From the NCBI GenBank assembly GCA_017430225.1, contig JAFRNK010000003.1, positions 32,099 through 96,098 of the forward strand: a stretch of 64,000 nucleotides of DNA, read 5' to 3'. The stretch is from Clostridia bacterium (lineage in GTDB: Bacteria > Bacillota > Clostridia > Christensenellales > Aristaeellaceae). A program made the translations under genes and the position numbers. Every line of letters begins with the position of its first letter. Position 1 is the first letter of the stretch. The notes under the pieces were generated by a model, which had not been told where the DNA came from, ran no database searches, and worked only from the letters and a program-made list of their open reading frames with translations. Below are positions 1 to 6,820 of this stretch, one piece after another.

Positions 1-1973
1 CTACATTCTGAAAAAGCATATTTTTCGATACTTGTCACACCATTAGATATTTTTATACTTTTCAAATTACTACAACCTGAAAATGTTTCTTGGCATATAC
101 AGTCTACACCAGATGGAATCATAATGCTTTCTAAAGCATTACATGCATAAAAAGCACCTTTATCAATGTTAGTGACACTTTCTGGAATCACTAAATTTTT
201 TAAGTTGATGCAATTATAAAAAGCATATTCACCAATACTCACTATACCATTTGGTAAAACCACGTTTTCCAAACTTTCACAACGATAAAAAGTCTCTCTC
301 CCTATTTCTGTAACCCTTAATGGAATGACAATCTCCTTTAGACTATTACAACGCATAAAAGCATATTCACCAATACTAATCACATTTTCCGGAATTGCTA
401 TGCTCAATAAACTACTACAACCATTGAATGTACCGTTTTCAATTCTCGTTATTCTGGATGAAAGAGTTATGCTAACCAAACCACTACATCCACTAAAAGC
501 ACTTTCCTTAATAGTATATACTGTATTTGGAATTATTATACTTGTTAATCCACTACACTTAGCAAATGCTGAAGAATCAATCATTGTAACACTACTTGGT
601 ATAGTTACTTGTGTAAAACCACCAAAGTTATAGAATGCATACGAGCTTATTGTTGCAAAAGTATCTGGAATTATAAGATTTGTAATTTCTGTATCATCGA
701 TATACAAGAAACTTGATGCTACATATGGATTGTAATTTGGACGACTTTCCAAATTTCCAAAATTAATTGATAACCATGACTCAATACTTGAAACATGAAT
801 CTCGGTAAGATTAGAACAATGACTAAATGCAAAGTCACCAATATATGTGATGTTGTCTGGAACTAAAATACTTCTTAGATTAGTACAATCACTAAAAGTG
901 TATGAACTTATACGTGTAATACCTCTTGGTATTACAATATCTGTTAAACCTTTACAATTGCGAAACGCATATGAATTAATTCTTGTTACACTATCAGGTA
1001 TTTCAATAGTTGTTAAATTAGTACAACCATCAAAGGCATAATCACTAATAAATGTTACACCATCCGGAATTGTTATGCTTATCAGACTACTACAGTTTTG
1101 AAATGCTGAATACCCAATTGACGTTATAGTATTGGGTAATACAACAGATCTTAGTTTCTTACAGCCATTAAATAAAAAGTTTTCTATGCTACTAATACCA
1201 TTCGGAATTATAATATCTGTCAGTCCAGTACAACCATAAAACGCAAAATACCCTATTTCGGATACAGTTTCTGGTATTATTATGCTTACAATATTAGAAA
1301 ACCCATAAAATGCTAAATCGCAAATACTTGTTATGTTATCTGGTATTATAATACTTGTTAATGGTTCATTACCAATATATAATCCGCAAACTTTATTATA
1401 ATTAGGATGGCTTTCAAAGCTATCATCATATTCTATCGATAACCAAGAATCTATACTTGATATATGTATTTGGTTTAAGCTATCACACTCTTCAAAAGCA
1501 TATGGACCAATTGTGTTAAGGCTTTCAGGCAATGTAATACTAACTAAACTAGTACATCCACTGAAAGCATAACTACCAATACTATTAATACTGTCAGGTA
1601 ACAAAACACTTTTCAAACAGGTGCATCCATTGAAAGCACTTCCACCAATGTCGGTAACACTATTTGGAATCGTAATATGTGTTAAATTAGGACAGTTAAA
1701 TGCCCTTTGACTAATATTTGTTATTCCTTGGCCAATTGTTACCGTTTTAATGGAAGATTTATACTTGTTCCATGCTTCACCAGAATCCGTAAATCCCTCC
1801 ATTTGTCCATTCCCAGTGATAACTAACTCCCCATTATCATCTAATACCCAATATAAGTCACCCCAATAACTTTTATATTCAGCGTAAGCTGATGTACCAA
1901 GTAATAATGCAATTAACAAAACTATTGCCATAAACCACTTAACAATAATTGAATGATTGAATTCTTTTTTCAT
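1..1973 (-). CDS. BspA-like leucine-rich repeat surface protein, 3' end outside window
   Basis: Reading the minus strand from ATG at 1973 gives an open frame of at least 657 codons that leaves the window without a stop. It starts after a GAAGGAG ribosome site. The N-terminus (MKKEFNHSIIVKWFMAIVLL, then ...GTSAYA) is a signal peptide. From about residue 75 the protein is a run of more than twenty LRR_5/BspA repeats of about 23 residues of the type 'I.IPDSVT.I...AF..C..L'. Two spacers carry a 'SIESWLSI' segment. Proteins of this family are secreted or surface-attached and often bind host or glycan ligands. The gene is strikingly AT-rich against its GC-rich neighbours, which suggests horizontal origin. 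The anchor domain, if any, lies beyond position 1. Confidence 0.9.
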   Translation of the reverse strand, partial: MKKEFNHSIIVKWFMAIVLLIALLLGTSAYAEYKSYWGDLYWVLDDNGELVITGNGQMEGFTDSGEAWNKYKSSIKTVTIGQGITNISQRAFNCPNLTHITIPNSVTDIGGSAFNGCTCLKSVLLPDSINSIGSYAFSGCTSLVSITLPESLNTIGPYAFEECDSLNQIHISSIDSWLSIEYDDSFESHPNYNKVCGLYIGNEPLTSIIIPDNITSICDLAFYGFSNIVSIIIPETVSEIGYFAFYGCTGLTDIIIPNGISSIENFLFNGCKKLRSVVLPNTITSIGYSAFQNCSSLISITIPDGVTFISDYAFDGCTNLTTIEIPDSVTRINSYAFRNCKGLTDIVIPRGITRISSYTFSDCTNLRSILVPDNITYIGDFAFSHCSNLTEIHVSSIESWLSINFGNLESRPNYNPYVASSFLYIDDTEITNLIIPDTFATISSYAFYNFGGFTQVTIPSSVTMIDSSAFAKCSGLTSIIIPNTVYTIKESAFSGCSGLVSITLSSRITRIENGTFNGCSSLLSIAIPENVISIGEYAFMRCNSLKEIVIPLRVTEIGRETFYRCESLENVVLPNGIVSIGEYAFYNCINLKNLVIPESVTNIDKGAFYACNALESIMIPSGVDCICQETFSGCSNLKSIKISNGVTSIEKYAFSEC

Positions 1974-2269
1974 TCTTCTCCTTCTTTCTCAACAACGCGT
2001 TATAGTTATATTGATTTGTGATATGTTATATGTTTCGTCAATTATATATATCCTATATATTTTCAATTTTATTATAAATGATTTATCACGGAATTTCAAT
2101 GAAAAAGTCGATAAAACCAGCTCATGATATAAACACAATGAAGATTCTAAATAAAAAGAAATGTGTATAACAACTCTGTCTACCACATACATGCCAACCA
2201 AAGGTGTTCGCTTATGTTGCTCAGGATGACAGTTGTTCCGCGCGTTGTGGAGTATAACCCTCGTTTTCC

Positions 2270-2821: not shown

Positions 2822-3351
2822 TAAGGATTCTTCTTCCCTTTCCCCGCCAGCAGCTCCTTCAGGCTGTTGTGCTTCAGCAGCACGGAAGCGAAGAGCTCGC
2901 CCAGGATATAGCAGCCGACGATCTCGCCGACGGCGATATAGAGGGCCAGCAGGTACAGCGGGATGTCGACGCCGTAGCCGTAGCGGAGCACCAGCGGCAC
3001 GATCACCGTATTGGCGGCGACGGCCGGGATGGGCACCAGCCAGCGGTTCTTCCGGAGCATATAGCCGAAGACCGCGCCGATCAGGGTGGCGAGGCTGCCG
3101 AACACGACGTCCCACACGATGGCGCCGCCCAGCAGGTTCGCCAGTATGCAGCCGAAGAACAGGCCCGGGATGGCGGCCGAAGTGAACAGGGGCATGATCG
3201 TCATGATCTCGGCGACGCGCACCTGGGCCGCCCCGAAGGAGATCGGGGCGAAGAGCATGGTCAGGACTACATACAGCGCGGCGATGACCGCGCCTTGCGC
3301 GACCTTGGTCGCGGTTGGATTTCTGTTGAGCATGGCCGGGGGATACCTCAT
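2821..3351 (-). CDS. queT: QueT-type ECF transporter substrate-binding (S) component
   Basis: This 176-aa membrane protein has about five hydrophobic segments. The sequence from residue 15 (KVAQGAVIAALYVVLTML, then FGAAQVRVAE) matches the QueT family, the S component of energy-coupling-factor transporters for queuosine precursors. The positively charged C-terminus ends in GKKNP. The ATG overlaps the histidine kinase stop by four bases (ATGA), so translation is coupled; an alternative ATG is at 3333. The shared ATPase/EcfT module is not in the window. Placement behind a two-component system is probably operonic. Substrate specificity is inferred from family resemblance only. Confidence 0.8.
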   Translation of the reverse strand: MRYPPAMLNRNPTATKVAQGAVIAALYVVLTMLFAPISFGAAQVRVAEIMTIMPLFTSAAIPGLFFGCILANLLGGAIVWDVVFGSLATLIGAVFGYMLRKNRWLVPIPAVAANTVIVPLVLRYGYGVDIPLYLLALYIAVGEIVGCYILGELFASVLLKHNSLKELLAGKGKKNP

Positions 3352-4757
3352 TCCTGTACCTGGGTGATCGGGATCTCGGCGATGAAGGTCGATCCCTTGC
3401 CCTCTTCGCTCTCCGCGCGGATGCTGCCGCCGTGCAGGGTCAGCAGCTGCTTGACGATGGAGAGGCCGAGGCCGGTGCCGCCGGTCTCACGGGAGCGCGC
3501 CTTGTCGACGCGGTAGAAGCGCTCGAAGATGTGCGGCAGGGCGTCCTTGGGGATGCCGGGGCCGTTGTCCTCCACGGTCAGCATGGCATTTGCGCCTTCC
3601 CGGGCCAGGGTCACGTGGATGGTGCCGCCGTCCTGCGTATATTTGATCGCGTTTTCCATCAGGTTGTAGATGATCTGGTTCAGCTTGCCGCGGTCGCCGG
3701 AAGTCTCGCAGTCGTCCTGCACGTCGATCTCGAGGGTCTGATTGCGCTTGCGGGCCATGGTGTTCAGGCGGTGCGCGTTTTCCTCGACGAGGTCGCCCAC
3801 GAAGAGCGGCTCCAGGTGCAGCTGCAGGGAGCCCGCGTCCATGCGCACGAGGGTCAGCAGGTCGCTGACGATGGCGCTCAGGCGGTCGATCTCCTTGTTG
3901 ACGTCCTGCAGGAACTCGATGCGCAGCGTCTTATCCATATCCGGCTGGTAGACCAGGGACTCGATGAGCACCTTCATGGCCGCCAGCGGGGTCTTCAATT
4001 CGTGGGAGGCGTTGGCGACGAACTGGTTGCGCGTTTCGTCCAGGGCCTCGAGCTTCTCTGACATGCTGTTGAACGCGGCGGCGAGGTGCCGGACTTCGCC
4101 CGCGCCTTTCTCAGGCAAGCGGAGCTTGAAGTTGCCCTTGCTCATGCGCTGGATGACCTTCGTCATGTCGGAGACGGGCTTGGTCAGCACGCTCGCGAAG
4201 AGGAAGCCCACCGCGACCGCGGCCAGGGCGACCAGCAGGAAGATGAGCAGCATCTGCCTGCGCAGGCTGAACAGGCCGGTCATCATGTCGGTGACCGGGG
4301 AAATCAGCAGCAGCACCCCGATAACTTCGTCCCGGGAGACCAGGCGCGCCGAGCAGTAGCTGTTCCACGCGCCGGAGGGATTCAGGGTAAAGAGGATGCT
4401 CTGGGTATTCACCATGCGGCCGGTTTCGCTTTCGTGCACGCCGAAAGAGACGCTTTGTCCGCGCCGGACGATCGCGTCCACCTCTTCGGATTCGAAAAGC
4501 GTGCCGGTCAGGTCGTGCTCCGTGTCCAGGTGCACCTTCCCGGCGGTGTCGAGCACGAGCAGCCGGCCCGTGATATCGCGGCCGTGCTCGCTGATCAGGG
4601 TATACAGCGCTTCCGTGTCCGCGCGGTCAAACAAGGGCGCGGCAGACTCGCCGAGCTTTTCCAGCTCGGCGCGCTGGGCGCGCACCCGCTCGTCAAATAA
4701 AAAATCGCCTACCATCCCATTCAGGCTGCCGGCTGTGATCACAAAGCTCAAGCCCAC
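3348..4757 (-). CDS. Two-component sensor histidine kinase (PhoR/WalK type)
   Basis: The protein is a membrane sensor kinase: extracytoplasmic sensor of about 130 residues, second membrane helix (MLLIFLLVALAAVAVGFLF), HAMP linker, HisKA with the phosphorylated His in NASHELKTPLAAM, and HATPase_c with N box (NLMENAIKYT) and G boxes (DNGPGIPKD, GGTGLGLSIV). It lies directly downstream of its OmpR-type regulator and ends overlapping queT. The listed GTG start falls inside the first membrane helix. The in-frame codons upstream encode the rest of that helix (VRISLTILLIVGLSF), but no ATG, GTG or TTG occurs between the regulator's stop and the helix. True initiation may use a rare codon, for example ATT at 4829. 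Confidence 0.9.
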   Translation of the reverse strand: MGLSFVITAGSLNGMVGDFLFDERVRAQRAELEKLGESAAPLFDRADTEALYTLISEHGRDITGRLLVLDTAGKVHLDTEHDLTGTLFESEEVDAIVRRGQSVSFGVHESETGRMVNTQSILFTLNPSGAWNSYCSARLVSRDEVIGVLLLISPVTDMMTGLFSLRRQMLLIFLLVALAAVAVGFLFASVLTKPVSDMTKVIQRMSKGNFKLRLPEKGAGEVRHLAAAFNSMSEKLEALDETRNQFVANASHELKTPLAAMKVLIESLVYQPDMDKTLRIEFLQDVNKEIDRLSAIVSDLLTLVRMDAGSLQLHLEPLFVGDLVEENAHRLNTMARKRNQTLEIDVQDDCETSGDRGKLNQIIYNLMENAIKYTQDGGTIHVTLAREGANAMLTVEDNGPGIPKDALPHIFERFYRVDKARSRETGGTGLGLSIVKQLLTLHGGSIRAESEEGKGSTFIAEIPITQVQE

Positions 4758-4809: not shown

Positions 4810-5502
4810 TCAGTCCTTGTCCGTGAAATAGTAGCCCACTCCCCACTTGGTAAAGATGAATTCCGGCTGGGAGGGCACGCGCTCGATCTTTTCGCGCAGG
4901 CGGCGGATATGCACGTCTACTGTACGGGCGTCGCCCATGTAATCGTACTTCCAGACCGTTTCAAGCATCGATTCGCGGCTGAACACCTTGCCGCGGTTCT
5001 GGATGAACAGCTGCAGCAGGTCGAACTCCTTGGCGGTCAGGCGGATATCCTTGCCGCCGAGCGTCACGGAACGGTTGACCAGGTTGACCTCCATGTCGTG
5101 CACGCGGACGGTCTTTTTCTCCTCCACGCGGACGGGCTGGGTGGTGCGGCGGAAGATGGACTTGATGCGCGCCTTGACCTCGAGCACGTTGAAGGGCTTG
5201 GTCATATAGTCGTCCGCGCCGTATTCCAGGCCCAGGATCTTGTCCATGTCCTCGCCCTTGGCGGTCAGCATGATGATCGGCACGTTGCTCTGCTCGCGGA
5301 TGCGCTGGCAGACCTGGATGCCGTCCATCTTGGGCAGCATGACGTCCAGCAGCACCAGATCGACCTCGTTGTCAAAGAAAACGCTCAGCGCTTCCTCGCC
5401 GTCCTGGGCTGTCAGTATTTCATATCCGTCCTGTTCGAGGGAGTATTTGAGCCCCTTGAGCATCGTCGGCTCGTCGTCAACCAGCAATATCCTCTTCGCC
5501 AT
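4810..5502 (-). CDS. OmpR/PhoB-family response regulator
   Basis: The protein has 230 aa. The receiver domain (residues 3-120) has the acidic pair D9/D10, phosphoacceptor D53 (LVLLDVMLPKMDG) and K102 in DDYMTKPF. The C-terminal winged helix (about 130-228) contains the RTVDVHIRRLREKIE recognition helix and the WGVGYYF beta hairpin. It is the cognate partner of the kinase that starts just downstream on the same strand. The target genes are unknown; queT is in the same transcription unit. The AT-rich gap upstream carries a DnaA-box cluster as well as the likely promoter. Confidence 0.93.
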   Translation of the reverse strand: MAKRILLVDDEPTMLKGLKYSLEQDGYEILTAQDGEEALSVFFDNEVDLVLLDVMLPKMDGIQVCQRIREQSNVPIIMLTAKGEDMDKILGLEYGADDYMTKPFNVLEVKARIKSIFRRTTQPVRVEEKKTVRVHDMEVNLVNRSVTLGGKDIRLTAKEFDLLQLFIQNRGKVFSRESMLETVWKYDYMGDARTVDVHIRRLREKIERVPSQPEFIFTKWGVGYYFTDKD

Positions 5503-5835
5503 CGTTCAGCGCTTCCTTCCGTCATTCGATGTACCCATAATGAGTGCTTTACTATTTTACAACACATTCGTCATAAAAATCAAGTATTTTCGCAATAATT
5601 TTTAACAATTCTGAAATAAAGTTATCCACAGTTTCCTCCCGCACGAACTGTGGATAACTTTGTTACGAAGCTGTTTCTTTCCGCTGATTGTGGCAAAATC
5701 GCGTTATTTAAGCGGTTTTTTGGCTCAAAATTGTGGATAACCCTGTGGATAATGTGGAAAAAGTCGATGTCAAGAAAAAAGTCATCAATATATTTTTACG
5801 GAAATATGAATTCAAAATTAAATCCCCGTAATGAT
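5503..5835. other. AT-rich gap with a cluster of consensus DnaA boxes
   Basis: Exact TTATCCACA boxes lie at 5622-5630 (plus) and, on the minus strand, at 5649-5657, 5732-5740 and 5744-5752. A one-mismatch box (TTTTCCACA) abuts the last at 5753-5761. The first two form a perfect 13-bp inverted repeat (5621-5633 and 5646-5658). AT-rich stretches flank the boxes on both sides (5540-5620 and 5761-5835) in an otherwise GC-rich region. No dnaA, dnaN or rpmH is adjacent, so this may be a DnaA-titrating or regulatory cluster rather than the origin. Confidence 0.65.
5554..5583 (-). promoter_or_regulatory. Candidate promoter of the response regulator operon
   Basis: On the minus strand TTGATT (5583-5578), an 18-bp spacer and TAAAAT (5559-5554) precede the regulator start by about 50 bp. 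This is a moderate match to sigma-A. Confidence 0.35.
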
Positions 5836-6690
5836 TTAAACCTGCATGGCGTGTTTGGCATTCCATACGTTATAAATGACTATGGACCCGACCACGATGA
5901 CCGCGCCGACCGCGGAAAGCACGGTGAAGGGTTCGCCGTAGAAGATCATGACCCAGAGCGGGTTCAGGATCGGCTCCAGGCCGGTGATCAGGCTGGCGGT
6001 CACGGGCGGGGTGTTCCTGATGCCCAGGGAGAAAAGGATGTACGCGCCGCCCACCTGGATCACGCCCAGGGCCAGCACCGCCAGCAGGGTCGGGGCGGAG
6101 AAATCCGTCTCCCGGAGGCACAGCGGGGTCAGCAGCACGCCGGCGGCCAGCTCGCCCCAGAAGCTGGAGGAGAGCGCGTCCGCGCCTTTGCCGGTGTTCA
6201 TCATGAACACGCCGGCGTAGCAGATGCCGGACAGTACCGCGACCAGGTTGCCGGCGAGGTTGCCCGCGCGGATGCCGTCGATGAAGAAGAGGACGACGCC
6301 CAGCAGCACCGCGGCGCAGGTCAGGATGTCCGCCTTCCGCGGCCTGCTGTGATAGAGGAGCGCCATCAGCAGGATCACGAACACCGGCGCGGTGAACTGC
6401 AGTACGATCGCGTTCGCGGCGGTGGTCATCTTGTTGGCCAGCGCGAAGGTCGTGGTCACGCTCATCAGGGACAGAGCGCCGATGGCCACCGTCCGGTTGA
6501 ATACGGGGCGGTGCTTCGTGACCAGCATGAACAGCCCGATCACGCAGGCGCCGATCAGGTTCCTCGCCCCGTTGATGGCCAGGGCCGACCAGGGGATCAG
6601 TTTCATAAACAGCCCGCCCGTACTGAAGCATACGGACGCGGCGATCACGCACATGACCGACGGCCAGGTGCGGCGGTTCGTGTTTTGCAT
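5836..6690 (-). CDS. EamA/DMT-family transporter
   Basis: This 284-aa integral membrane protein has ten predicted helices in two EamA halves. The first half starts at SVMCVIAASVCFSTGGLFMK. The second ends in the ITGLEPILNPLWVMIFYGE motif typical of drug/metabolite transporters. I chose ATG 6690, which follows CCGGAGGCACC; a 43-residue upstream extension is open but polar and unlikely. Family members export amino acids or metabolites, and the substrate cannot be told here. It stands alone between the DnaA-box gap and the LytTR operon terminator. Confidence 0.88.
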   Translation of the reverse strand: MQNTNRRTWPSVMCVIAASVCFSTGGLFMKLIPWSALAINGARNLIGACVIGLFMLVTKHRPVFNRTVAIGALSLMSVTTTFALANKMTTAANAIVLQFTAPVFVILLMALLYHSRPRKADILTCAAVLLGVVLFFIDGIRAGNLAGNLVAVLSGICYAGVFMMNTGKGADALSSSFWGELAAGVLLTPLCLRETDFSAPTLLAVLALGVIQVGGAYILFSLGIRNTPPVTASLITGLEPILNPLWVMIFYGEPFTVLSAVGAVIVVGSIVIYNVWNAKHAMQV

Positions 6691-6820
6691 GGTGCCTCCG
6701 GGTCTTTCATCAGAGTGCCGCATCGCGGCAACGGAATCATTCTCCGCAAAGGCGGCTTTTCCTGCCGGAATACGGAATTCGTACAATGGGAAAAGGTTGT
6801 GATGCTGCTGTTCCGGCAAG

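Follow-up and report, generated by a model that had tools for sequence, protein, structure and literature searches.

A conserved, probably non-origin cluster of DnaA boxes found in changing gene neighbourhoods of a Clostridia bacterium and its relatives

The window analysed here, a 64,000-nucleotide stretch from the MAG of a Clostridia bacterium (2.65 Mb in 131 contigs, 82% complete), contains a 333-bp gap (5503–5835) with an A+T content of 65%, extending from the start of a response regulator gene (5502) to the end of an EamA transporter gene (5836). Both flanking genes are on the minus strand, as the initial annotation of this DNA had stated, and its count of four exact DnaA boxes plus a near match within 140 bp (5622–5761) was reproduced by sequence matching, with four copies of TTATCCACA and one box reading TTTTCCACA, all five inside the gap. 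The core module has the order TTTTCCACA, TTATCCACA, NNN, TTATCCACA, with a fourth box following 83 bp on, and the fifth box is inverted (Table 1). An inverted pair had been described as perfect over 13 bp; the inversion is indeed perfect, with arms of 16 bp. Elsewhere in the window, positions 1–1988 (minus strand, ~ 32% GC) cover the N-terminal portion of an open reading frame of 1055 aa that contains leucine-rich repeats and, by eye, resembles BspA-like surface proteins.

Table 1 Features of the box cluster and the adjacent genes (positions refer to the window)
Feature	Positions	Strand	Basis
Sensor histidine kinase (HAMP, HisKA, HATPase_c)	3348–4757	−	Pfam
OmpR/PhoB-type response regulator (Response_reg + Trans_reg_C)	4810–5502	−	Pfam
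Promoter-like hexamers TTGATT (5578–5583) and TAAAAT (5554–5559), 18-bp spacer, ahead of regulator	5554–5583	−	By eye
Perfect inverted repeat, 16-bp arms 5618–5633 and 5646–5661	5618–5661	.	Read from sequence
Fifth box, exact TTATCCACA, inverted	5622–5630	+	Sequence match
Fourth box, exact TTATCCACA, 83 bp (~ 8 helical turns) from box 3	5649–5657	−	Sequence match, alignment
Core module, 113 bp: triplet (5732–5761) and same-strand fourth box (5649–5657)	5649–5761	−	Aligned in own genome and five congeners
Triplet box 3, exact TTATCCACA, 3 bp past box 2	5732–5740	−	Sequence match, alignment
Triplet box 2, exact TTATCCACA, abuts box 1 without gap	5744–5752	−	Sequence match, alignment
Triplet box 1, TTTTCCACA	5753–5761	−	Sequence match, alignment
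EamA-type transporter, 3′ end toward cluster	5836–6819	−	Pfam

Sixteen box matches at ≤ 1 mismatch were found in the window, the only exact ones being the four of the cluster. Across 300 dinucleotide shuffles of the window, the fullest 140-bp interval never exceeded one exact box, against the 4 observed, or two boxes at ≤ 1 mismatch, against the 5 observed, and 5000 shuffles of the gap yielded one exact box in 11 cases and more than one in none. The whole MAG contained 18 exact boxes (4 of them in the cluster) and 14 occurrences of the reversed control word, a near-equality indicating that it is the cluster, rather than the single box, that is enriched. None of the other 14 exact boxes belonged to a cluster of at least three boxes (≤ 1 mismatch, within 250 bp). 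A single intergenic gap with more DnaA boxes than chance would place there is what is expected of a non-origin DnaA-box cluster. Other kinds of element were considered and rejected. Of two Rfam matches below gathering score, mir-7445 fell on the inverted box pair with 30 of 79 bits and snoR134 reached 17.5 of 40, and both were put down to chance; positions 5600–5780 gave no match in a plasmid collection at E 1e-5; and the triplet occurred in six IMG/VR viral contig stretches (L361–L366), none of them with DnaA, DnaN or the usual neighbours in 4–10 kb, so that neither a plasmid nor a phage origin was retained as a candidate.

The triplet TTTTCCACA-TTATCCACA-NNN-TTATCCACA, searched at ≤ 3 mismatches, was present in 93 of 300 family genomes, representing 26 of 50 genera, while the reversed pattern was found in 0 of 300. 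Most of the positive genomes (82/93) carried exactly one copy and the other 11 had two or three matches. Absence of conservation in relatives, which the initial annotation had named as an argument against any role, is therefore not what was observed. The relatives are mostly fragmented assemblies, and the lack of a triplet at this threshold in 207 of the 300 genomes may reflect loss, divergence or assembly gaps; an example of divergence is G031, whose tsaD site has boxes spaced by 42 bp and lacks a triplet. Within the window's own genus, the core could be aligned in the own genome (G000) and in G001, G003, G004, G005 and G006, with similarity falling off at the outer (5′) edge of the triplet, and of these six the fifth, inverted box was detected at ≤ 1 mismatch in the own genome and G001 only. 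Two further members of the genus, G002 (68% complete) and G007 (91% complete), had neither the triplet nor a cluster at tsaD; G007 also gave no regulator match at E ≤ 1e-70.

When 84,980 species genomes were scanned for the exact pattern, 94 triplet stretches (the genome_contigs records) were obtained, with titles mostly of Clostridia. Together with 38 fetched family loci, out of 105 family places, these made up 132 loci, from which 119 distinct modules were taken for the analysis of spacing and 121 for that of neighbours. A fourth same-strand box at 30–100 bp from box 3 was found in 61 of the 119 modules, whereas 200 shuffles gave 1.3 on average and 4 at most. All but four of these distances (57/61) measured 41–45, 50–52, 72–74 or 82–86 bp, the exceptions being 36, 37, 37 and 67 bp, and the groups near 42, 52, 73 and 83 bp correspond to approximately 4, 5, 7 and 8 helical turns. 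Even in the own genus the spacing takes two values about one turn apart, 83–84 bp in four genomes and 73 bp in two. None of 20,000 uniform simulations matched the observed clustering at a 10.5-bp period, related genomes being non-independent draws in this comparison; the same test on the 19 distinct distance values alone gave p ~ 0.04, and for the 72 undeduplicated distances a 10-bp period fitted slightly better than one of 10.5 bp. A different array was seen in genus g76 (L149–L156), where several loci have extra boxes 30–75 bp away on the other side of the triplet, mostly without a fourth box.

Gene families around the modules were assigned by Pfam or family model (DnaA, DnaN, TsaD, MnmE) or by eye (DusB, MurC, DnaD, DnaI, YifB, recF, PfkB, RlmH, peptidases); TsaD we take to be the same as gcp, and MnmE the same as trmE (mnmE also being thdF). 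Neighbours within 2.5 kb of the 121 distinct modules included Amidase_3 (21), TsaD (16), DusB (11), MnmE (9) and MurC (8), and the response regulator was matched four times, once as a remote paralogue. Three neighbourhoods were distinguished in the own genus alone: in G000, G001 and G004 the regulator and kinase flank the module on one side, the opposite side having no gene common to them; G005 and G006 agree in two genes past the triplet (one RlmH-like, one for a HAD-type phosphatase, both named by eye) and in none at the other end; and G003 has no module neighbour in common with any congener. Such differences imply that one or both sides changed repeatedly right at the module.

Some of the more distant records deserve separate mention. 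In L191, L196, L202, L203, L218, L219 and L227 the triplet lies 3′ of the murC stop codon (519 bp from it in L219), and in several records of this type DnaD-like and/or DnaC/DnaI-like helicase-loader genes then follow (by eye). Triplets beside mnmE were found in L200, L206, L208, L229, L238, L243, L261, L271 and L272, which include Flavonifractor plautii and the complete genome AP025582.1; Caloramator fervidus is another cultured bacterium with a triplet record. Exact triplets also occurred in MAG records of Patescibacteria (two titled Giovannonibacteria) and Treponema (L258, L267, L268, L231, L236). DnaA or DnaN was encoded in 2 of the 94 triplet stretches (both in L194, DnaA in L276), where the triplet may belong to an origin, and the triplet is accordingly not confined to ectopic sites.

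Other Clostridia carry a cluster just 3′ of tsaD, and this flank (0.85–1.45 kb) was read in 29 of 30 family genomes, mostly picked for having the triplet, G021 being dropped with TsaD below the cut-off. Six of the 29 (G008, G018, G029, G031, G081 and G090) had at least three clustered boxes at this flank and lacked a triplet in the rest of the genome. Among the remaining 23, none had more than one box here; 21 of them carried the triplet at another place, and two (G002 and G007) had neither. Away from tsaD, the triplet was found beside an amidase in some genomes and upstream of the response regulator in the own genome and two sister species. Intermediate arrangements were seen as well: in G025 and G124 the module stands ~ 4 kb beyond tsaD on the same contig, the order is amidase-module-tsaD in G081 and module-amidase in G084 and others, and neither tsaD nor the amidase is beside the module in G000, G001, G003, G004 and G005. 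Upstream of mnmE, boxes were present in number in only two of 22 family genomes, G029 and G008, at 1.2–1.5 kb, and the own genome had no cluster there.

On a TsaD tree of 27 family rows, with Caloramator and Geosporobacter as outgroups (both picked with the module at tsaD; G021, G002 and G090 left out, the latter two having partial TsaD), the label ‘elsewhere’ required five changes, at least four of them forced by well-supported branches, and the label ‘tsaD’ four, at least three of them forced. Judging from the two selected outgroups, the other records and B. subtilis, in what is a biased sample, the element probably stood ancestrally at the 3′ end of tsaD. A likely path leads from tsaD-module-amidase through loss of one neighbour to loss of both. 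Descent is traced through the module at tsaD in other Clostridia and in the six family genomes and through the single amidase-module-tsaD case; the window's own site, which is not at tsaD, is linked to these by box layout, and on this footing the modules at different sites would belong to one lineage. Moves outside the own genus are deduced from layout and from the pattern of occupied and empty sites, without alignable sequence, and loss at tsaD with independent gain elsewhere is the alternative to them. No paper on relocation of DnaA-box clusters in Clostridia was found in our literature search.

The location of the replication origin was approached through gene positions and GC skew. As the initial annotation had observed, dnaA and dnaN are not adjacent to the cluster, both being on other contigs, and no rpmH was seen among the Pfam-named neighbours. 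The own dnaA, on contig C113 (L020), has a PfkB-like kinase gene on one side and a transporter gene on the other (both named by eye), and this context is not an assembly accident, since the kinase is also beside dnaA in G001, G004 and G007. Around dnaA (3.2 kb) there was no box at ≤ 1 mismatch. The own dnaN, on contig C106, has three one-mismatch boxes upstream between diverging genes, and GC skew here passes from −0.013 on the left (9.8 kb) to +0.061 on the right (52 kb, one 2.5-kb bin negative), while on the cluster's own contig it is 0.010 on the left and 0.041 on the right, with no switch of sign.

A similar picture was obtained in another member of the family, G031, whose 3.97-Mb contig was sampled for skew in stretches up to 20 kb. 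The samples between 2.4 Mb and 46 kb, counting across the contig's end and start, had negative skew, and those between 100 kb and 2.1 Mb had positive skew; in a stretch that was read through, cumulative skew reached its minimum at ~ 63.9 kb, in the recF-dnaN region, where boxes lie upstream of dnaN, and dnaA (contig C3; L127, L299) is ~ 46 kb from this minimum. By eye, the DNA upstream of dnaN in G031 comprises a box, a C-rich spacer and TAC-rich repeats resembling a DnaA-trio; a strict trio pattern missed this TAC-rich stretch, its one match there being a different run. The same strict search found no run of at least three TAC/TAT units in the gap 5503–5835, and was blank upstream of the own dnaN too. 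Cluster flanks were examined in 10 of the 93 triplet genomes, chosen for long contigs (genes by a plain ORF caller; flanks of 20 kb, except one side of 3.9 kb in G008 and one of 12 kb in G262). In none of the ten was skew negative on the left and positive on the right with both sides above 0.02; six (G101, G124, G008, G176, G015 and G185) had the same sign on both flanks, each at least 0.035, and the case least contrary to an origin was G262 (−0.001/+0.073).

By skew alone, then, the window cluster is placed outside the origin, with the switch at dnaN on another contig and 0 of 10 relatives showing one at the module, and it is very probably not the replication origin. The own genome's origin is probably at dnaN. 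For the initial annotation, which had offered an origin moved away from dnaA as one of two readings and had looked to the skew minimum for a decision, the minimum or switch turned out to be neither at the cluster nor at dnaA; its notion that dnaA stands apart from the origin probably holds, with dnaN in place of the cluster as the likely site. Separation of dnaA from dnaN was observed in the own genome and G031, and the gene context of dnaA varies even within the genus. A second kind of cluster occurs upstream of dnaA in some relatives (L115, L132, L133), with boxes 14 bp apart and one 70–104 bp off. These boxes were rejected as the same element, given their different layout (two boxes 14 bp apart) and their coexistence with the module in G005 and G025.

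Several explanations other than a DnaA sink or timing element were weighed. The initial annotation had raised control of the adjacent OmpR-type operon as a possibility; DnaA bound upstream could repress or activate transcription of the regulator and histidine kinase genes and thereby couple it to the cell cycle. The nearest box is 119 bp from the regulator start codon, the cluster is just upstream of promoter-like hexamers, and passages of PMC4447404 describe DnaA regulating several operons at such clusters in B. subtilis. However, when regulator upstream regions were read in the best 30 of 54 genomes with a regulator match, boxes were found in three (own, G001 and G004) and not in the other 27, despite 75–99% identity of the regulator in the 29 relatives. 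The promoter-like block (TTGATT-18-TAAAAT) is recognisable in three congeners without boxes, and the module adjoins other genes elsewhere. We consider this account unlikely; regulator control is possible, but, with the block recognisable in box-less congeners, it is an unlikely reason for conservation of the module. That the cluster is the chromosomal origin, relocated from dnaA and dnaN, has in its favour the consensus boxes, the 65% A+T gap, the position of dnaA elsewhere, the skew values on the cluster's own contig and the presence of DnaA in 2 of 94 exact-triplet stretches; it can nevertheless be given very little credence, with no origin-like skew in the ten relatives, the same sign on both sides in six, the skew change at dnaN in the own MAG and G031, and no trio-like run in the gap by a strict search that was equally blank at the own dnaN.

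The conserved array away from the origin might instead be a datA- or DARS-like element, altering the nucleotide state of DnaA beyond merely holding it. In line with this, the B. subtilis gcp/ydiF region is reported (PMC4447404) to bind 16-fold more with ATP-DnaA than with ADP-DnaA at 55 nM. Against it, datA needs IHF, which B. subtilis is without (PMC13220808, PMC5295017), and we regard the idea as improbable. A chance cluster, or a decaying relic without function, would fit the 207 family genomes that have no triplet, but the arrangement was not reproduced by shuffles, and its box order and spacing are found again from genus to genus and among other Clostridia, which makes this explanation highly implausible.

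The reading we prefer, and consider probable, is that of a relocated DnaA-box cluster outside the origin, comparable in kind to the DBCs of B. subtilis and most likely acting as a DnaA sink or timing element. DnaA binding, titration and an effect on timing are here inferred properties of the module. The suggestion of a DnaA-binding cluster controlling initiation, also made by the initial annotation, gains support as such an inferred role from conservation of the module in changing neighbourhoods and from the tsaD seat in other Clostridia and six family members. Four same-strand boxes at whole-turn spacing could accommodate several DnaA molecules next to one another, bound cooperatively, on one helix face; passage of the fork would duplicate the module, bound DnaA would increase, and less free DnaA would be left for the origin. 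Since the module has probably moved repeatedly within the family and stands in three gene neighbourhoods within the own genus, what selection maintains appears to be the element rather than its tie to any one gene. More tentatively, and with somewhat less than even confidence, we propose that the ~ 113-bp, mostly single-copy module is free-standing, position-independent and selected, having left tsaD several times and settled in three neighbourhoods of one genus with its boxes in helical register.

If this is true, a DnaA sink whose chromosomal place has been varied by evolution would provide a natural experiment on initiator titration, and one conserved cluster at different places in sister species would make titration and position effects directly testable. 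Initiation timing without Hda, Dam, SeqA and IHF is still argued over. In practical terms, many boxes packed together at a distance from dnaA do not by themselves point to an origin, and the origin in this family is to be sought at dnaN rather than at dnaA.

Among known systems, the Firmicutes oriC (dnaA-dnaN, boxes plus DnaA-trio) is similar in its closely packed boxes, C. difficile for instance having three boxes next to the trio (PMC7561715), whereas at the window cluster the strict search gave no trio-like run and there is neither dnaN nor a skew switch. The E. coli loci datA, DARS1 and DARS2 are likewise non-coding box arrays away from the origin and tune initiation, datA with a need for IHF (PMC5295017), and they keep conserved relative distances from the origin (PMC5010248); the window cluster is likened to them by kind rather than by homology. 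The B. subtilis cluster between trmE and jag finds a counterpart in 9 of 121 distinct triplet modules that are beside mnmE, all of them genome_contigs records, whereas the own genome has none upstream of mnmE.

The closest parallel is the B. subtilis cluster between gcp (tsaD) and ydiF, a strong DnaA region, which also has several boxes in a non-origin intergenic gap and whose seat is occupied in other Clostridia and six family members; unlike it, the module is away from tsaD in 21 of the family genomes examined, the own genome among them. B. subtilis has six non-origin clusters, whereas in the own MAG the window cluster was the sole one found round an exact box. Deletion of all six leads to early initiation, partly relieved by re-adding one (PMC5295017, PMC13220808), and the effect is strong only with all six removed (PMC5295017). 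One review (PMC5295017) holds that the B. subtilis data show no cluster with a significant regulatory role. B. subtilis is without Hda, Dam, SeqA and IHF, and raising its DnaA production tenfold did not cause over-initiation (PMC13220808). The overproduction result disfavours a simple sink, and the two reports together slightly lower the odds of the sink reading.
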